From the NCBI GenBank assembly GCA_003252145.1, contig QKDJ01000230.1, positions 1-12,766 on the forward strand: a stretch of DNA of 12,766 bases, in the 5' to 3' direction. The position numbers and the translations under genes are program-made. Below are positions 1,631-12,690 of the stretch, one piece after another (position 1 is the first letter of the stretch; each line of letters opens with the position of its first letter). Below the pieces are notes generated by a model. It worked only from the letters and a program-made list of their open reading frames with translations. It did no database searches and was not told the origin of the DNA. The DNA is from Azovibrio restrictus (lineage in GTDB: Bacteria > Pseudomonadota > Gammaproteobacteria > Burkholderiales > Rhodocyclaceae).

Positions 1631-3325
1631 ATGTACCGTCTTCGTAGCGAACCTTCGCCACTCACCAGTGCCTTCCTGAAACTGCCGGGTACCCTACTCC
1701 TGGTCTTTGATCGCCAGGGGCGACTCAAAATGTTCAGCGATGCCTGGTCGGAAACCTTGGGTTACGACGCAGAGGAACTACGGCAACGCACTTTTTTTGA
1801 CCTGCTCTACCCGGAGGACCGGGCCGATTGCCAGGAAAAGTTGGCCAGCATGCATGCTGACCTCCCCACCCTGCGCTTTGCCAGCCGCTGCAGCCGCAAG
1901 GAAAAAGACTACCTGGGCGTGGCCTGGAGCATCACCTACGACGCAGAAGAGGAACTCTTCTACGCCTCCGCCCACGAAACAGCCGTACAGCTGTGTGCCG
2001 AAGAGGCCCATCTGCCTGACGTGTTCGTGGACGGCCTCACCGGCCTGCCCAATCGCAGCCTGTTCCTGGACCGTCTGGAGCACACCCTGCACCGGGCGGA
2101 GCGCCGCAAGGATATGCAATTTGCCGTGCTCCATTGCGGCATCGATCGCTTCTCGGTGATCAACAACAGCTTAGGCCACCGCATGGGGGACCTGCTGCTC
2201 ATGAGCGTGGCCAATCTGTTACGCAACACCATCCGCCCTACAGATATGGTGGCCCGTCTTTCCGGCGATGAGTTCGGCATCCTGCTGGAAGACATCCGGG
2301 ACGTAAGTGCCACCCTCCATGTGGTCAACCGGGTTCAGCAGAAACTGCAATTTCCTTTCCCCCTAAATGGCCACCAGGTTTTTGCCACCGTGTCCTTTGG
2401 CATCGTGATCAATGGAGAGGAATACCAGCAACCCGACATGATGTTGCGGGACGCCAACATGGCCCTGGTCCAAGCCAAGAGCCAGGGAGGCGGCGCCTAT
2501 CTGGTCTTTAACAAGAACATGCACGACCAGGCGGTGCGTCGCCTGAAACTGGAGTTGGATCTGCGTCAGGCCCTGGAGCGGGGCGAATTTCAGGCCTACT
2601 ACCAGCCCATCGTGCAACTGCTCACGGGACAACTCACGGGCTTCGAAGCCCTGGTGCGCTGGAATCACCCCAGCAAGGGGCTGATTTCCCCCCTGGAATT
2701 CATTCCCGTGGCCGAGGAAACCGGCCTGATCGTGCCCCTGGGCCGCTGGATGTTGCACGAAGCCTGTCGCCAGTTACGTCACTGGCAGGCCCGCCTGCCC
2801 GGTGCGGAGCACCTGAGCGTCAGCGTCAATCTATCCACCAAGCAGGTCCTGCATCCCCGCCTGCTCAATGACGTACAGGACGTACTGGTCAGCACCGGCC
2901 TGCAACCGGAACACCTGAAGCTGGAAATCACGGAAAGCGCCATGATGGAGGATACGGAACGGGCCATCACCCTGCTCGAATCCCTCAAGGCCATGGGCCT
3001 GCGCATCCTGCTGGACGATTTCGGCACCGGCTATTCCTCCCTGGCCTACCTGCACCGGCTACCCATCGACACCCTGAAAGTGGACCGCTCCTTCATCCGC
3101 CATGTGCATGAGAAGGAAACAGACCGGCACTTTGTGGAAACCATCGTACAACTGGCCCAGCGCCTGCAACAGGATGTAATCTGCGAAGGGGTGGAATTGC
3201 AGGAACAGGCCCGCCTGCTGGCTGGCATGGGCGTCACCCACACCCAGGGCTTCCTGTATTCCCGCCCCGTGGCCGCCCACGAAGCGGAAATGTTGATTCT
3301 CGCGGGCTTCCCTTCCGCCCACTGA
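1631..3325 (+). CDS. PAS-GGDEF-EAL cyclic-di-GMP signalling protein
   Basis: A soluble 564-residue protein with no predicted membrane segments. A PAS-like sensor (about residues 12-115, with [12 protein letters not shown] at 39-50) is followed by a GGDEF domain (about 130-295) and an EAL domain (about 303-560). The GGDEF signature is SGDEF at 211-215, a variant found in active enzymes. RPTD at 202-205, five residues before it, fits the RxxD inhibitory product-binding site. D172 and N179 match metal and substrate positions. The EAL domain looks catalytically complete: E339-A-L, N400, E432, D462-D463 in [10 protein letters not shown]483, E519 and Q539. The protein could therefore both make and degrade cyclic-di-GMP, with the PAS domain setting the balance; which activity dominates cannot be read from sequence. 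No clear Shine-Dalgarno precedes the ATG and no in-frame upstream start is available. The gene stops 5 bases before the convergent permease gene. Confidence 0.95.
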
Positions 3326-4832: not shown

Positions 4833-6170
4833 GTGTCTGCAACAGCCAACAAATCCAAGAGCCTGTATATCCAGGTCATCATCGCCATTGCCATTGGCGT
4901 TCTACTGGGTCACTTCATGCCCGAACTGGGCACCCAGATGAAACCTCTGGGTGACGGCTTCATCAAGCTCATCAAGATGATCATCGCCCCGATCATCTTC
5001 TGTACCGTCGTCATCGGCATCGCCGGGATGGAAGACATGAAGAAGGTGGGCAAGACCGGCGGCTACGCCCTGCTCTACTTCGAGATCATGAGTACCGTGG
5101 CCCTGATCATCGGCCTCATCATCGTCAATACAGTCCAACCTGGCGCCGGCATGCATGTGGACCCTGCCAGCCTGGATACCAAGGCCATTGCCAGCTACAC
5201 AGATCCGGCCAAGATGCAGACCACCACCGAATTCCTGCTGCACATCATCCCCACCAGCGTGGTGGATGCCTTTGCCAAGGGTGACATGCTCCAGGTGCTG
5301 CTGTTCTCCGTGCTGTTCGGTTTTGCCCTGCACGCCTTTGGTGGCCGGGGCAATATCGTCTTCGACGTGATCGAGCGCCTCTCCCATGTGCTCTTCCACA
5401 TCGTGAACATGATCATGAAGCTGGCCCCCGTTGGTGCCTTCGGTGCCATGGCTTTCACCATCGGCAAACATGGCGTGGCCTCCCTGCTGCAACTGGCTCA
5501 GCTCATGGGCTCCTTCTACGCCACCTGCCTGATCTTCATCTTCGTGGTACTGGGCTCCGTCGCCCGCTTCCACGGTTTCTCCATCTGGAAGTTCATCAAG
5601 TACATCAAGGAAGAACTCCTGCTGGTGCTGGGCACCTCCTCTTCCGAATCCGCCCTGCCCCGGATGATGGCCAAGCTGGAGAACCTGGGCGCCAAGAAGA
5701 CCGTTGTGGGTCTGGTGATTCCCACCGGCTACTCCTTCAACCTGGACGGCACTGCCATTTACCTGACCATGGCTGCCGTATTCATCGCCCAGGCCACTGA
5801 CACCACCATGACCCTGAACCAGCAGCTGACCCTGCTGGCCGTGTTGCTGGTGACCTCCAAGGGTGCCGCCGGGGTGACTGGCTCCGGCTTCATCGTGCTG
5901 GCCGCCACCCTGTCTGCCGTGGGCCATGTACCGGTTGCCGGCCTGGCCTTGATCCTGGGTATCGACCGCTTCATGTCCGAAGCCCGGGCACTGACCAACC
6001 TGATCGGTAACGGGGTCGCCACCCTGGTGGTCGCCAAGTGGTGCAAGGAACTGGATACGGAGCGTCTGCACCAGCACCTGAATAATGAGACGGTGGAAGA
6101 GGCCGATGATCCGGAGCTGGTCCTGGATGAGCAGGAGGCCCACCTGTCCACCGGAGCCGCCCGAGCCTGA
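4833..6170 (+). CDS. dctA: C4-dicarboxylate/proton symporter DctA
   Basis: A 445-residue inner-membrane carrier of the DAACS (glutamate transporter fold) family. It imports succinate, fumarate and malate with protons for aerobic growth. Landmarks in order: [18 protein letters not shown] (residues 14-31), [18 protein letters not shown] (43-60), [16 protein letters not shown] (196-211), the Ser-rich re-entrant loop [12 protein letters not shown] (267-278), NLDGT (303-307) in helix 7, the second re-entrant loop with [13 protein letters not shown] (341-353), and [17 protein letters not shown] (377-393) with the substrate-binding residues of helix 8. Length is normal. It starts at a GTG codon (4833), supported by GGAGG at 4821-4825 with a 7-base gap. 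The acidic C-terminal tail is typical. It is monocistronic, with its own sigma-54 promoter upstream and a strong terminator downstream. Confidence 0.97.
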
Positions 6171-6186
6171 ACCGGCTGATCTAATG

Positions 6187-6220
6187 AAAAAAGGCGACGG
6201 TCAAACCCGTCGCCTTTTTT
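6187..6220. terminator. Bidirectional Rho-independent terminator
   Basis: A perfect 14-base inverted repeat: A6 followed by GGCGACGG (6187-6200), loop TCAAAC, then CCGTCGCC followed by T6 (6207-6220). The GC-rich stem with T-run works in both directions. It ends dctA on the plus strand (16 bases after its stop) and the DUF1631 gene on the minus strand (15 bases after its stop). Confidence 0.95.
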
Positions 6221-6235
6221 CATGGACCGCTGTAA

Positions 6236-8416
6236 TCAGGCGGCCTGCAGGACTTCGATAGTACGTGCCAGAGCCCGGTCAAAGATGGGCTCGGTAGAGA
6301 GAATCCGGACTTCGCCCCGCTGCAGTTGCACGCTCATGGCTTCAGGAGAAACGGCCAGGGCCTGGGGAGAATGGGGATTGGTAAAGAGGAAGATACCGCG
6401 CTGGGGACTGACCCAGGACAAGCGATAGCGAATGGCCTCGCCATCGGGCTGGATGAACTCCACCCAGTCGCCCCGCTGCAAGTCCTCGACCTCCTGAGCC
6501 GCTTCCACATCCGGCAGTTCCTGGCTCAAGGTCAGACTTTCCACCGTCACTTCGCCATCGCCCAGCACCTGGGTCGTCACTTCGGGCTCAGCCACAACCG
6601 CTTCCTGCTCCTCCAGCATCTCAGCCACAGGCTCGGCAGCCGACATCTCAGTTCCACGCAGAGCCTTGGCATGGACGGAGAACAATTCATCCAGCACCCG
6701 ATGGCGCCGCTCACCATCCGTCTTGATCCGGTCAAACCCTGCAATCAATTGCTTCAGCAACACGGGTAGTTGGCAGGCCAGGGCTTGGCGCTCCTGGGGA
6801 TCACGCTTGGCTCTGGTGCTATCCACCAGGGCAGCAGCAGTTTCCATAGCCCCTTGCCAGGCTTCGCTATCCAAGCCCTCTGCCAGGTAAATCTGCTTTA
6901 ACAGCAGGCGCCACTCGCGCTCCAGGAGCGCGGCAACCACACCAGGCTGAGGCATGGACAACAGGGGACGAAGCTCCCTTTCCACTGCCAAGCCCGCCAG
7001 TTCTTCCCGTTCACGCTGGGCCACCAGGGAAGCGGCACGACTGAGGTCTCCAGCAGTCGTAGCCTCGTATTCCGCCAAGAACTGCTCGAAATCGTCACTC
7101 AACTTGGTGAACAGGTCCGTATCCTGCTGAAAATTGCCATGGATCTGGTCCACAATTTCGGCGATCTTCAAATAGATCGGGTCATCGTGCCCCACGTCCT
7201 TGCCCCAGCGCAGGGCGGTACGGGAAATCAGGTCAAGCAAACGACGGGTCGGATGAGCCTTGCTGGAGAAGAAGGCACGATCCAGCATGGCGACCTTGAG
7301 GATGGGAATCTGCAACTTGCCCACCAAAGCCTTGATGGGATCGGCAATTTCCCGATCATCGAAAATCATGTCGAACAGCATGGCCACGATATCGACCGTG
7401 ATGGCATCCAGCTGACCCAAGCCCTGACCGACTTCACTGGCCCTGAAGTTGTGCAACACATTGGTGTTCTCGGTCGCCACCGGCTGGCCAACGGCGAAAT
7501 TCTGGACGGCATGCTGCATGGCCTCCAGGGAAGCCCACACCTGGGCCACAGGAACGCTTTGACCGCCGCCTACCCCGGCGCCAGGAATCCCTGGCACCCC
7601 CGGCAAGGCAGCAGCCCCAGACGGGGCTGCAACGCCCCCCGAAACCAGGCGCTGCAGCATGTTGAATATGTCGCCTGAAGCCTCTTCCTTGCTCGTTTCC
7701 TTGCTGGAGTTCTGACTCGGGCTCCGACCATAACCCCGCTTGAGATTGGGCAGAATGTCGTGCTTCAACAACTGGGCATTGATCGCGTGGAAAACGGGCC
7801 CCACCTGTGCCACCACCAACCCTTCCAGACAGCGGTACAACTCGATCCGACTTTGAATCTCGAATTCCACATCCCGCAGGGCACCCAGCAAGGAGCGGGT
7901 GAAAACATCCGGTGACAAGGGATTGGGAGCATCGGCGGGACTGTCATGGTCGATCAGGAAATTGATACGCCGCCCAAGGGCATACAACTCATCCGCACAT
8001 TTGTCTTCCAGACGGCGGGCCAGGGACTTCAGAGCCAGCTCTTCGTCCATTTCACCCACATCGACGATCTGCAGATCATCCAGGGAAAGCTTCTTGGGCG
8101 CTGGTTCCTCAACCCCTTTCAGGGCCCCATCAAACTCTTGGGCCCAGTGGGCAGACAACTGGGCTTCCAGACGGGAGCCCTTCTCGCGCAAAGCATTGGC
8201 CAGATCCAGCATGAGGCGGAAGTTACCCTTGCCGTTGAGCGCATCAGCGCGCTTATGCAGCGCCTCGATGGCCTGTTCCAGCATGGTCCGAGAAACTTCC
8301 CGCAAGCGGCGTGAAGCCAAGTCACGGCATCCCATCAGGATACGATTGGACGTTGCAGCCACACCGGGTCCACCGGGTTGCAGATTGATCACATTTCCGT
8401 ACGCTGTAGTTGCCAT
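6236..8416 (-). CDS. DUF1631 family protein under a probable cyclic-di-GMP riboswitch
   Basis: A 726-residue cytoplasmic protein that I assign to DUF1631, a family of beta- and gammaproteobacteria without an established function. Most of it is predicted helical. A Gly/Pro/Ala-rich linker at about 258-288 splits the helical part. The most conserved-looking stretch runs from about 345 to 400 and includes MLFDMIFDDREIADPIKALV, then QIPILKVAMLDRAFF, then HPTRRLLDLISRTALRWG. After an acidic linker (590-645), residues 646-710 (RGDWVEF, then RLSWVSPQRGIFLFTN) look like a small beta-barrel. It resembles PilZ in outline but lacks the RxxxR and [D/N]xSxxG cyclic-di-GMP motifs. I place the start at 8416 (MATTAYGN) because AGGGAG sits six bases upstream. 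The frame continues to an ATG at 8539, but that extension lies in the riboswitch leader. Some database entries call such proteins thymidine phosphorylase; nothing here supports that. Confidence 0.85.
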   Translation of the reverse strand: MATTAYGNVINLQPGGPGVAATSNRILMGCRDLASRRLREVSRTMLEQAIEALHKRADALNGKGNFRLMLDLANALREKGSRLEAQLSAHWAQEFDGALKGVEEPAPKKLSLDDLQIVDVGEMDEELALKSLARRLEDKCADELYALGRRINFLIDHDSPADAPNPLSPDVFTRSLLGALRDVEFEIQSRIELYRCLEGLVVAQVGPVFHAINAQLLKHDILPNLKRGYGRSPSQNSSKETSKEEASGDIFNMLQRLVSGGVAAPSGAAALPGVPGIPGAGVGGGQSVPVAQVWASLEAMQHAVQNFAVGQPVATENTNVLHNFRASEVGQGLGQLDAITVDIVAMLFDMIFDDREIADPIKALVGKLQIPILKVAMLDRAFFSSKAHPTRRLLDLISRTALRWGKDVGHDDPIYLKIAEIVDQIHGNFQQDTDLFTKLSDDFEQFLAEYEATTAGDLSRAASLVAQREREELAGLAVERELRPLLSMPQPGVVAALLEREWRLLLKQIYLAEGLDSEAWQGAMETAAALVDSTRAKRDPQERQALACQLPVLLKQLIAGFDRIKTDGERRHRVLDELFSVHAKALRGTEMSAAEPVAEMLEEQEAVVAEPEVTTQVLGDGEVTVESLTLSQELPDVEAAQEVEDLQRGDWVEFIQPDGEAIRYRLSWVSPQRGIFLFTNPHSPQALAVSPEAMSVQLQRGEVRILSTEPIFDRALARTIEVLQAA

Positions 8417-8559
8417 GACACGCTCCCTCGCCGCAAAAAACGCAGCAAACTCAAACAAATCAGACCTGTTGAGCAAACAAGCAAAAGAGAAGGAGCCACC
8501 GAAAACGCGCGCTGCCACTTGCGCGAGGCGCCAGTTCACGAATGGAACCGACGAATCTC
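8417..8559 (-). other. DUF1631 mRNA leader and possible expression platform
   Basis: This untranslated stretch of about 143 bases links the riboswitch aptamer to the start codon. Three weak hairpins are visible on the minus strand: CGGTTC/GAACTG (8550-8532), CGCGC/GCGCG followed by CG and T4 (8525-8502), and GCTGC/GCGGC (8446-8430) just before the ribosome site. The second resembles a short intrinsic terminator, and the third could influence ribosome access. I cannot decide which, if any, is the switch, nor whether the ligand turns expression on or off. Confidence 0.4.
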
Positions 8560-8675
8560 GCCTAGCCTGGCAGTCCCGCTATCATGGAGCGCATGCCCTC
8601 GAAGCAATGCCACTCTTTAGACCGGTGATTTTGCGTCCCCATCTTTCGAAGGGTTTGCCTTGATACAGTTAGGCC
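8560..8675 (-). promoter_or_regulatory. GEMM-I / cyclic-di-GMP-I riboswitch aptamer
   Basis: The minus strand carries the conserved elements of the GEMM-I aptamer in the right order and spacing. AAGGCAAACCC (8661-8651) leads into a stem closed by a GAAA tetraloop (CCCTTC-GAAA-GATGGG, about 8653-8638, one mismatch). GGGACGCAAAA (8639-8629) follows, then CACCGGTCTAAA (8627-8616, tetraloop-receptor strand), a variable hairpin (GAG/CTC closing, inner GCAT/ATGC), and ATAGCGGGACTGCC (about 8582-8569, the opposite receptor strand with the expected ligand-contacting C). An outer GCCTA/TAGGC pairing (8674-8670 with 8564-8560) may close the fold. The region before GCAAAC is AAGG rather than the AGGG of the Vibrio Vc2 aptamer, but the base I align with Vc2 G20 is still G. 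That favours cyclic-di-GMP over cGAMP as ligand. It lies upstream of, and in the same direction as, the DUF1631 gene and downstream of the HDOD gene. No clear promoter of its own was found. Confidence 0.88.
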
Positions 8676-8721: not shown

Positions 8722-9579
8722 TCAAAAACTTAACGACGCCGCAATAGCACTCAATTCCTCGCTGGACTCTTCAAGGATCGCCGCCAGTTCAGCATCTGCC
8801 ATCACCTGAGAGGGCAAATCGCGGGTTTCCGGATTGCCCTCCATCCCCACATTGGCATCCAGAGGACTGGCAATGGGTGTCAGGCAATTGGCCAGAAACA
8901 AGGTGTCGGCAAGGTTTTTCGGCGGCAGGACGACACGCCCCTGCCACAAACCACCGACTGCCGTGGCAATTTCCTCTGGCACCGCCAAGGCTTTCAATAC
9001 CGCTGAGCCCACCAGGGCTTCGCCCCCCGTCCGCCAAGCCTTATCCACCTCTTCGTCCAAGAGTCCCGGATAAGCCTCTGCACGGGAAATCAGATAGAAC
9101 CCTCCCACCTCATGGACAATACCGGCAAACATGGCGGCGTCCGGGTTCTGACGACTCACACGCTTGGCCAGGACATAGCACAGGGCCGCCACATGGGAGG
9201 TGTGCTCCCAAAGACGGGTGGCCAGTTGCTGATGAGTGGCCGCTGGATTTGCGGCGATCTGCCGCATGATCAGTGCCGTAGACAGGGCACGGATCAGATT
9301 CAGCCCCAAGCACACGACTGCCGAACGCACGTCGGAAACCGGGTTCCCCGAGCGATTGAAGGCCACGGAATTGGCCAGGGCTACCGCCCTCGCCGCCAGC
9401 AAGGGCTCCGCCTGTACGATTTTGGCAGCCGCTTCGGAATGCATGTCCGGATCATCCAGGGCCACGCGAATCTGCAGCGCCACTTGGGTATGGGTCGAAA
9501 AAACCAGCTCGCCTTGTGTCACCTCGGCAGCCAGTCGATTCAGCGCTTCCCTATTCTTCATCGCCGTGCTCGTGTTCAT
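8722..9579 (-). CDS. HDOD domain protein
   Basis: A 285-residue protein that is almost entirely one HDOD domain, a catalytically degenerate relative of HD phosphohydrolases used in bacterial signalling, usually as a scaffold. Typical features are the N-terminal helix pair with PLLAARAVALANSVAFNR (residues 59-76), the segment VSDVRSAVVCLGLNLIRALS (81-100), W124-EHTSHVAALCYVLAKR, GIVHEVGGFYLI (153-164) where the HD pair has become H156-E157, and the late segment ALAVPEEIATAVGGLW (197-212). There is no membrane segment or partner domain. The substituted metal-binding pair argues against phosphohydrolase activity. ATG at 9579 is used; ATG at 9561 is a plausible alternative, and neither has a strong ribosome site. 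The gene lies just upstream of the riboswitch and DUF1631 on the same strand, 46 bases from the aptamer, so read-through transcription is possible. A T10 run (8708-8699, minus strand) follows its stop but without a proper hairpin. Confidence 0.85.
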   Translation of the reverse strand: MNTSTAMKNREALNRLAAEVTQGELVFSTHTQVALQIRVALDDPDMHSEAAAKIVQAEPLLAARAVALANSVAFNRSGNPVSDVRSAVVCLGLNLIRALSTALIMRQIAANPAATHQQLATRLWEHTSHVAALCYVLAKRVSRQNPDAAMFAGIVHEVGGFYLISRAEAYPGLLDEEVDKAWRTGGEALVGSAVLKALAVPEEIATAVGGLWQGRVVLPPKNLADTLFLANCLTPIASPLDANVGMEGNPETRDLPSQVMADAELAAILEESSEELSAIAASLSF

Positions 9580-9729: not shown

Positions 9730-10404
9730 TCAGCCGGTACCCAAACCCCGATCCGTCAGGGACAGTCGATTCCGGTATCTGGATTTGAGTCGGTAGAGCT
9801 GCGCAGGGCGATGAGCCTTGCCCGTTTCCATGGCCCCCTCGATAGGCTCAAGGATGTCGAATTCCTCGATTTTTCGCCGAAAGCTCACCTTGTTTACCGG
9901 CTCGCCCAGCAGGGCTTCGTAGACGGACTGCAGTTGAGGCAGGGTAAAGGTATCGCCGCAGAGATACACGGGCAGGGAGGAATAGCTGCTCTTGTTACGC
10001 ACGCGCTCCAGCGCGGCAGCAACGATCTGTTGGTGATCAAAAGGCAGGCCGGCGATGCCATCTGCAGGCACGAGTACCACTTCCGGATGCCCTGCCAGCC
10101 TGATCACTTCCGTGGGCACCAGGGCGTAATAGCAGATGGAAAGGGACCAACCTCGTGGGTCCCGTCCACGACCAGAAAACGTGGCCAGTTGCTCCAGATA
10201 GGGGCTAACGATACCGGTCTTTTCCAGCAGCACCCGCGCAGCCGCCACCTGAGTGTCCCCATCCTGGTCAGGATGGATATACCCCCCTGGCAAAGCCAGC
10301 ACACCGGGAAATGGCTCATGGTCCCGACGCAACAGAGCGACCCGGAGCTGACCATCCAACAGGGTAAGCAGGACCACGTCCACAGTGCATATGATCTCAG
10401 CCAT
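9730..10404 (-). CDS. nrtR: NrtR, Nudix-related transcriptional regulator of NAD metabolism
   Basis: A 224-residue protein in which a Nudix-fold ligand-binding domain (about 1-140) is fused to a C-terminal winged helix (about 150-208). In the Nudix box after LALPGGY (36-42), the usual REUxEExGU reads R57-V-L-L-E61-K-T-G64-I. The catalytic glutamates at positions 58 and 62 are replaced by Val and Lys, so hydrolase activity is probably lost. The C-terminal part matches NrtR: TFTLPQLQSVYEALLG (152-167), KVSFRRKI (172-179) and HRPAQLYRLK (198-207). Characterised NrtR proteins repress NAD biosynthesis genes and are released by ADP-ribose or related NAD metabolites. The gene is divergent from the nicotinamidase-pncB-nadE operon, the classic context. 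The start at 10404 fits the family N-terminus, though the ribosome site is weak. The 150-base gap to the HDOD gene holds only small repeats and no clear terminator. Confidence 0.92.
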   Translation of the reverse strand: MAEIICTVDVVLLTLLDGQLRVALLRRDHEPFPGVLALPGGYIHPDQDGDTQVAAARVLLEKTGIVSPYLEQLATFSGRGRDPRGWSLSICYYALVPTEVIRLAGHPEVVLVPADGIAGLPFDHQQIVAAALERVRNKSSYSSLPVYLCGDTFTLPQLQSVYEALLGEPVNKVSFRRKIEEFDILEPIEGAMETGKAHRPAQLYRLKSRYRNRLSLTDRGLGTG

Positions 10405-10516
10405 TGGGTCACCACAGGTTACATAAGCCCCTTAGGATAACAGGCAAGCAAACAAATTCCGGGCTTGGCCTCTTAAAAATCCGGGGTGTATCAGCGAATC
10501 CCACAAAACCGACCCT

Positions 10517-10543
10517 TACTTAGTTGCAATATTAAACAAAGTA
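10517..10543. promoter_or_regulatory. Candidate NrtR operator
   Basis: TACTTAGTT (10517-10525) and AACAAAGTA (10535-10543) form a 27-base dyad in which 8 of 9 arm positions pair, around GCAATATTA. It lies in the nrtR-pncA intergenic region and covers the -35 element of a plausible promoter for the salvage operon, so a bound repressor would block transcription. The size fits the known NrtR sites, but assignment to NrtR rests on position and symmetry. Confidence 0.6.
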
Positions 10544-10552
10544 GCCTAGGAT
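10524..10552 (+). promoter_or_regulatory. Probable sigma-70 promoter of the NAD salvage operon
   Basis: TTGCAA (10524-10529), a 17-base spacer and TAGGAT (10547-10552) each match 4 of 6 consensus positions. Transcription would begin near 10559, about 38 bases before the nicotinamidase start. The -35 element lies inside the candidate NrtR operator. Confidence 0.45.
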
Positions 10553-10596
10553 GAATCCATGCGCTGATGACAGCGCCCTTTAAACAGGAGGGCAAC

Positions 10597-11445
10597 ATGA
10601 CCCGGCAAACCATTCATCTGGTGATCATTGATCCCCAAAACGACTTTTGCGACCTGCCCGAGGCCCTGCAGAATGGACATCGACCCGCCCTGCCCGTGAC
10701 TGGCGCCCACGCTGACATGCTTCGCCTGGCCGCTCTGATTGATCAGGGCGGAGCCGGATTGACGAACATCAGCGTCACCCTGGATTCCCACCAGCGTCTG
10801 GACATCGCCCACCCCACCTTCTGGGTCCGGAGTGACGGCAGTCCGGTAGCCCCCTTCACCCAAATCCAGGCTGTCCGGGTCCGGCGCGGCGAATTCCGTC
10901 CCCGAGACGAAGCAGCCCGGGAGCGAGTCCTGAGTTATCTGGAAGCCCTGGAAGCCGCCGGGCGTTACACCCACATGATCTGGCCGGTGCACTGCGAATT
11001 GGGCAGCTGGGGGCATAACGTGCATGACGCCGTACGGGCGGCCTACAACTGCTGGGAAGAGGCTTCCGGCATCGGTGTCGCCAAAGTGATCAAGGGCACC
11101 AACCCCTGGACCGAGCATTACAGCGCCGTACGCGCCGAAGTGCCGGACCCGGCGGCGCCGGAAACCGGCAGCAATGTCGCGTTTCTCTCCAGTCTGCAGC
11201 AGGCGGATCTGATCCTGATTGCAGGTGAAGCCGGTAGTCACTGTGTCAAGGCGACTACGGAGCACATTGCCGAGGCTTTGCCCAAAGAGGCTTGGGGACG
11301 GCTGGTGCTGCTCACGGATTGCATGAGCCCGGTGAGCGGTTTCGAGACCCAGTACCAAGGTTTTATTGAGGACATGGCAGCCCGTGGCGCCCGTATTGCC
11401 CGCAGCGCGGAAATCCTTCCCGAACTGCTCGCCAACGCTGACTGA
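10597..11445 (+). CDS. pncA: Nicotinamidase (isochorismatase-fold cysteine hydrolase)
   Basis: Converts nicotinamide to nicotinate and ammonia, the first step of the deamidating NAD salvage route. The 282-residue protein has the isochorismatase-like fold. The catalytic triad is D12 (IDPQNDF), K166 (KGTNPWTEHYS) and C216 (GSHCVKAT). Metal ligands would be D63, H65 and H72 (TLDSHQRLDIAH), and WPVHCELGSWG (129-139) is the usual WPxHCxxGxxG motif. It is some 70 residues longer than E. coli PncA; the extra length lies mainly in segments around 90-125 and 140-165. The start at 10597 is chosen over the in-frame ATG at 10567 because AGGAGG sits six bases before it. It is first in the operon, 21 bases before pncB. 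That context and the NrtR-like control support nicotinamidase over other cysteine hydrolases, but substrate specificity is inferred. Confidence 0.85.
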   Translation: MTRQTIHLVIIDPQNDFCDLPEALQNGHRPALPVTGAHADMLRLAALIDQGGAGLTNISVTLDSHQRLDIAHPTFWVRSDGSPVAPFTQIQAVRVRRGEFRPRDEAARERVLSYLEALEAAGRYTHMIWPVHCELGSWGHNVHDAVRAAYNCWEEASGIGVAKVIKGTNPWTEHYSAVRAEVPDPAAPETGSNVAFLSSLQQADLILIAGEAGSHCVKATTEHIAEALPKEAWGRLVLLTDCMSPVSGFETQYQGFIEDMAARGARIARSAEILPELLANAD

Positions 11446-11466
11446 AGTCAGATCAAGGAGAACAAC

Positions 11467-12690
11467 ATGGATAACAAGCAACCCATCGTGCAGAGTCTGC
11501 TGGAAAACGATCTCTACAAATTCACCATGTGGCAGGCCCTGCTGCACAGTCATCCGGGCGCCCTGGCCGAATACACCTTTGTCTGCCGCAACACCCCCGA
11601 GTTTCCCCTGACCCAACTGAAAGCCCAGGTGGAACAGGAGCTGGATCGCCTCTGCAGCCTCAGTTTTACCCAGGAAGAACTCGATTATCTGGGGAGTCTG
11701 CGCTTCATCAAGAGCGACTTTGTGGACTTCCTCTCCGTCTTCCGCTTCCAGCGCCGTTTCATCCAGGTCAGCGAAGAGGGAGAACGGCTGAGCATCGTTG
11801 CCAAGGGCCCCATGGTGCATGTGATGGCCTTCGAAATCTTCGTGCTCTACATCGTCAATGAACTCTATTTTCGCCGTCTTGGTGATACGGATGCTGCCTT
11901 GATGGAGGCCAGGCAACGGCTGCAATCCAAGATTGCCCTGGTGCGCCGGGAAGCTGCTGACCTGGGGGGCGCCGAGCCTTTCGTGATCACCGACTTCGGC
12001 CTGCGTCGCCGCTATTCCGGAGCCTGGCATGAAGAGGTCGTACGCACCTTGGCCCGGGAGCTGCCGGAACACTTTCGCGGCACCTCCAACGTTTTCCTGG
12101 CGAAGAAGCTCAACCTTCTCCCCATTGGAACCATGGCCCACGAATATCTACAGGCCTATCAGGCTTTCGGCTTCCGTCTGCGGGATTTCCAGAAGGCCTC
12201 ACTGGAAGGCTGGGTGCAGGAATATCGGGGTGACCTGGGCATCGCCCTGACCGACGTGGTGGGTATGGACGCTTTCCTGCGCGACTTTGACCTCTATTTC
12301 GCCAAGCTCTTTGACGGTCTGCGTCATGACTCGGGGGACCCCATCGTCTGGGGTGAAAAAGCCATCGCCCACTACCATGCCTTGCGCATCGACCCTACCG
12401 CCAAACGACTGGTGTTCTCGGACGGCTTGGATGTCCCCCGGGCCATGGCGCTCTATCGGCACTTCAAGGGGCGTATCCAGACGGCCTATGGCATCGGTAC
12501 CGACTTGACCAATGACACGCCCCACAAGGCCCTCAACATCGTCATGAAGCTGATCTCCTGCAACGGCCAACCGGTCGCCAAACTCTCGGATGCGCCGGGC
12601 AAGACCTTGTGCGAAGACCAGACCTTTCTGGCCTATCTACGCCAGGTGTTTCAGCACCCTGCCGCACCGGCCCGAGGAGGTGGATCATGA
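11467..12690 (+). CDS. pncB: Nicotinate phosphoribosyltransferase
   Basis: Joins nicotinate to PRPP, with ATP hydrolysis, to give nicotinate mononucleotide. The 407-residue length is that of the bacterial PncB type. Landmarks are [17 protein letters not shown] (residues 11-27), [16 protein letters not shown] (177-192), [15 protein letters not shown] (221-235) whose H225 corresponds to the histidine phosphorylated in the Salmonella enzyme, [12 protein letters not shown] (281-292) and [10 protein letters not shown] (341-350) with the phosphate-binding region. All look intact. AAGGAG lies seven bases before the ATG. The last codons overlap the nadE start in ATGA (12687-12690), which suggests translational coupling. 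The nicotinate it uses is produced by the preceding gene. Confidence 0.97.

Follow-up and report, generated by a model that had tools for sequence, protein, structure and literature searches.

The locus examined here raises the question of what an uncharacterised protein family, DUF1631, has to do with cyclic di-GMP (c-di-GMP), and whether the RNA element standing before one of its genes in Azovibrio restrictus sets the output of that gene. The window, by which we mean the whole 12,766-nucleotide stretch of DNA analysed, had been read in a first-pass annotation as carrying the ordered core of a GEMM-I riboswitch on its minus strand, about 145 bases before a DUF1631 start codon. We find the core pieces present in that order, and a gap of 149 nt, on the same strand, between the end of the aptamer and the DUF1631 ATG (8416). 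The features on which the argument turns are as follows.

8722..9579, minus strand: HDOD-domain gene directly upstream of the switch; a related gene stands at other linked loci
8560..8675, minus strand: aptamer with its outer P1 arms, GGCCTAACTG (8675-8666) and CAGGCTAGGC (8569-8560), paired by eye
8566..8669, minus strand: c-di-GMP-I (GEMM-I) riboswitch aptamer, RF01051, with G at the ligand-selectivity position (67.2 bits and covariation)
8530..8552, minus strand: hairpin P4, 8 bp; two relatives preserve the stem while some of its pairs differ (a comparison of only three sequences)
8508..8525, minus strand: hairpin P5, CGCGC-N8-GCGCG; stem preserved in two relatives, with variation in the loop; terminator-like score in the window
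8423..8429, minus strand: probable ribosome-binding site GAGGGAG, 6 nt 5' of the ATG, identified by eye
6236..8416, minus strand: DUF1631 (PF07793) gene, 726 aa, behind the aptamer (480.5 bits)

By its sequence, the element is confirmed as a standard c-di-GMP-I riboswitch aptamer. When the window was compared with all Rfam families, RF01051 (c-di-GMP-I) matched at 8669-8566 on the minus strand over the full model (1-87 of 87), scoring 67.2 bits where the gathering score is 35, with an E value of 1.1e-11; it is the best-scoring member of its clan for this aptamer, and the assembly (1.87 Mb, 57% complete) has no other match to the model at E 0.001. Among the three closest leaders compared, the outer P1 arms of the window aptamer are identical in the relatives L033 and L034. 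Covariation was assessed in 31 DUF1631-linked aptamers. Paired cells make up 97.4% of the total, and double-changed cells number 113, where shuffles give 34.1 +/- 5.6 and sliding the partners gives at most 28; changes on both sides occur at 13 of the 21 pairs and back the P2 and P3 helices, which argues that the fold of the linked aptamers is under selection.

The gene behind the aptamer is the DUF1631 gene it had been taken for, since PF07793 matches it at full length (residues 23-723, 480.5 bits against a cut-off of 33.7). It runs from an ATG at 8416-8414 to a stop codon ending at 6236; at E 0.001 the assembly, 57% complete, contains no second DUF1631 match. A longer, mechanically called frame from a GTG at 8539 would take in leader sequence; the gene starts in L033 and L034 agree with the ATG at 8416. 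The predicted protein structure has a long helical body (residues 17-587) and a small C-terminal barrel (613-705), with a mean pLDDT of 85.5. Fold comparison of this model brought no known fold to prominence, and searches by sequence found neither a PilZ match in the protein nor a relative of solved structure.

Elsewhere in the window, a PAS-GGDEF-EAL gene lies at 1631-3325, so that a c-di-GMP turnover protein is encoded nearby. At 9730-12690 an NrtR-like Nudix/winged-helix regulator diverges from an isochorismatase-like gene (a weak match) and nicotinate phosphoribosyltransferase, in what is probably an NAD salvage locus. A strong GC hairpin with runs of A and T on its two sides occupies 6150-6223, where the dctA and DUF1631 genes converge, and looks like a two-way terminator; CsrC/SpF25-like matches there fall below their gathering scores and were rejected, the site fitting an ordinary terminator hairpin of such a convergent pair.

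Is the pairing peculiar to this genome? In 199 genomes of the same family, RF01051 occurs in 101 and DUF1631 likewise in 101. All of the best 150 aptamers listed were compared with 102 of the 150 DUF1631 matches listed, namely the first 100 and those of G106 and G153, which were chosen because they adjoin an aptamer; the G153 link depends on one of these two lower matches. Of the 150 listed aptamers, 28 have DUF1631 downstream of them on their own strand, and these come from 28 genomes including A. restrictus. They account for 32 linked DUF1631 matches, four genomes having two adjacent matches per aptamer; in these four loci (L055, L056, L061 and L062, from G172, G196, G106 and G053) one aptamer probably precedes tandem genes. 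Rfam scans of further loci added a 29th linked family genome (G005, aptamer 57.5 bits) and the named MAGs HGW-Betaproteobacteria-12 (79.2 bits) and HGW-Betaproteobacteria-7 (76.1 bits).

The same arrangement recurs at the level of the order. Here 300 genomes were sampled, DUF1631 being present in 126, and all 150 listed aptamers were compared with all 150 listed DUF1631 matches; 42 of these aptamers lie upstream of DUF1631, in 42 genomes from 13 families, the window genome included. From the aptamer to the start of the HMM match, 38 links measure 135-391 nt and four 1635-1976 nt; in these four the match starts far into a long gene or within a second one. Over the rows compared, neither sample contains an aptamer misplaced within 2500 nt of DUF1631, whether upstream on the opposite strand or downstream. 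The pairing of aptamer and DUF1631 is thus conserved across 13 families of the order. The survey of orthologous leaders that the first-pass annotation had proposed has in this way found the aptamer in 29 family genomes, two MAGs and 42 order genomes, and its suggestion that a DUF1631 target ties the family to c-di-GMP signalling gains support from this recurrence.

Many DUF1631 genes lack the aptamer. Of 53 family genomes that combine a listed aptamer with a DUF1631 match used in the comparison, 28 are linked, or 29 with G005; among the 48 family DUF1631 matches of at least 380 bits, 27 are linked in the matches listed and 28 with G005. A rescan of 30 DUF1631 genes that had no listed aptamer found none reaching the gathering score in its flank (about 300 nt in one case). 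In a tree built from 61 DUF1631 proteins, 31 linked (two of them from the named MAGs) and 30 unlinked, the label changes 9 times against 20.5 in shuffles, so that linkage appears to be inherited in certain branches and lost or gained in others. Before one of the 30 rescanned genes (L084, genome G018) lies a sequence that reads by eye as an eroded aptamer with several core pieces, likely a riboswitch in decay.

DUF1631 is also the largest target group (28) behind the 150 listed family aptamers. The 122 unlinked ones led to 121 mechanically chosen downstream ORFs, one having none, which were grouped by single-linkage clustering. By Pfam, the second group (19) carries Peptidase_S8 (subtilase) in 10 of 10 tested, an eleventh having PilZ and no subtilase; the third (12, of which 11 were tested) carries HDOD in eight, one of them with GGDEF, and GGDEF in three, two of them with EAL. 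Smaller groups, seen through single representatives, include metalloproteases, pilins, a TPS exoprotein and a chemotaxis receptor. Beyond DUF1631, the targets are the customary GEMM range.

Which nucleotide the aptamer answers, and whether it acts on DUF1631 at all, can be weighed against these distributions. The position equivalent to Vc2 G20 was mapped from the RF01051 structure line of the window match together with passages of PMC9262584 and PMC6274999, and is the residue immediately 5' of P2; the former passages describe G20 as a selectivity factor among cyclic dinucleotides, and the latter put A14 of the cGAMP riboswitch where J1/2 ends, directly preceding P2, and name a G20A GEMM-I mutant with bound cGAMP. 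The window has a G at this position, not the A that would mark a cGAMP (GEMM-Ib) aptamer, and because the residue is G the predicted ligand is c-di-GMP. Across the 31 aligned aptamers the G20 equivalent is G in 30, and two further contact positions, which we take to be A47 and C92 in Vc2 numbering, are A and C in 31 of 31 each; the window aptamer has all three contact residues. That it instead belongs to the cGAMP branch or to another ligand variant, so that DUF1631 would answer another nucleotide, is very unlikely, given that G is found in 69 of 71 DUF1631-linked aptamers (the window and 68 of the 70 others) and that RF01051 is the window's top clan model. Such a reading draws on the exceptions, an A in L103 (G166) and a C in L214 (G354), and on a linked relative (L068, 2581-2683) whose best clan score is with RF03167 (c-di-GMP-I-GGC). 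In G166 and G354 the ligand may have changed before the same kind of target.

The HDOD gene on the other side of the aptamer invites a different account, in which the aptamer is a relic, or a 3' element of the upstream HDOD transcript, and has no action on DUF1631. A relative of this gene does stand upstream at 13 of 30 other linked loci (one by a short partial match) and at three of four unlinked ones, and several other family aptamers precede HDOD genes; yet 17 of the 30 linked loci show no related HDOD gene in the available flank and keep the aptamer before DUF1631 all the same, G056, G065 and G183 keep the HDOD gene where no aptamer was found, and the covariation favours selection on the aptamer fold. 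We consider this account hardly probable at all, and prefer the reading in which the aptamer acts on DUF1631. In G176, a genome of the same genus, a GEMM-I aptamer lies immediately before an HDOD gene (L074, 2864-2959).

How a c-di-GMP riboswitch would act on DUF1631 was sought in the leaders. Seventy-one were assembled, with start codons picked by us among the in-frame candidates; four without a usable start were dropped from the terminator and accessibility tests, and G226, one of the 42 order-linked genomes, lies outside the set. Intrinsic terminators are not enriched, occurring in 3 of 67 leaders, one of them the window's, against 2.9 +/- 1.5 in shuffles, so that intrinsic termination is rejected as the general mode and translational or Rho-dependent control is the likelier. 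For the window itself, the terminator-like site called at P5 (8525-8508, followed by TTTT) suggests intrinsic termination at this hairpin, but shuffles of the region average 1.2 such sites, L033 and L034 keep the stem without a T run, and the count across the leaders is that expected by chance; we regard such termination as unlikely. The conservation of the P4 and P5 stems is suggestive only, as just three sequences are compared.

Other measures of the leader gave no uniform picture. Mean accessibility of the ribosome site is 0.386 in the free leader, 0.336 in the spacer alone and 0.358 in the shuffled-aptamer control, a small and mixed effect, and the window runs in the opposite direction (0.14 free, 0.30 alone); no common switching structure was found in silico across the DUF1631-linked leaders. 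Promoter-like sites 5' of the aptamer scoring at least 8 occur in 15 of 71 leaders against 6.8 +/- 2.1 in shuffles, about twofold, while the average score, 4.83 against 5.11 in shuffles, shows no rise.

Based on these observations, we consider it very likely that a class I c-di-GMP riboswitch occupies the DUF1631 leader and that its predicted binding of c-di-GMP alters DUF1631 output; both the binding by the window RNA and the control of the gene are what we infer from sequence. In the mechanism we propose, the aptamer (P1-P2-P3 with its GAAA loop) would bind c-di-GMP, and binding would stabilise P1 and alter the folding of the 150-nt leader behind it. The changed folding would in turn alter DUF1631 output after transcription initiation, by control at translation or by Rho-dependent termination more likely than by intrinsic termination, and DUF1631 would thereby be part of the c-di-GMP response in these betaproteobacteria. 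The recurrence of the pairing in several related families suggests a place for DUF1631 in the choice between a swimming and a settled state. More tentatively, DUF1631 might be a core c-di-GMP output in betaproteobacteria and an old, order-wide GEMM-I target, whose protein performs a step between the motile and attached states, perhaps touching c-di-GMP itself or partnering the HDOD protein; we offer this as a possibility that we think somewhat doubtful.

That a riboswitch precedes DUF1631 in 13 families offers a strong and testable clue to a role in c-di-GMP physiology, and a large share of the GEMM-I aptamers listed for the order (42 of 150) precede this one uncharacterised family. As a conserved riboswitch target, the family becomes directly testable, and c-di-GMP is a candidate inducer for studies of it. 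The riboswitch class is known and the DUF1631 target apparently undescribed. In agreement with the first-pass annotation, which knew of no description of the pairing, we found no report of DUF1631 as a GEMM target in the literature searched, although an earlier mention in a supplement may exist; nor did that literature bring DUF1631 together with c-di-GMP.

A 2013 survey of the GEMM regulon, in the part consulted, gave most of its content as of unknown function (PMC3766115), and the portions examined of papers naming DUF1631 give it no function. The family appears in a promoter list (PMC10155442) and in PMC10139004, and a Jeongeupia DUF1631 gene, a copy not known to have the switch, is raised by 3.04 log2 on chitin relative to glucose (PMC10455584).

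Among characterised or named systems, the nearest to the protein is the PF07793 DUF1631/PacR family, which it resembles in its full-length DUF1631 match; it differs in its score with the NCBIfam PacR model NF058594, 168.7 bits and far short of the cut-off of 1200, so that no function can be transferred to the window protein, and the literature searched contained no recognisable paper on PacR in the DUF1631 sense. The cGAMP (GEMM-Ib) riboswitches of Geobacter share the fold of the window aptamer and have A at the selectivity residue, where the window has G. Vc2 of Vibrio cholerae (RF01051) has the same core sequence, P2 and P3, GAAA loop, selectivity G and placement in a 5' leader. Compared with Vc2 and the other RF01051 systems, the arrangement described here is without a clear intrinsic terminator, and its target is DUF1631, kept behind the aptamer in 13 families.
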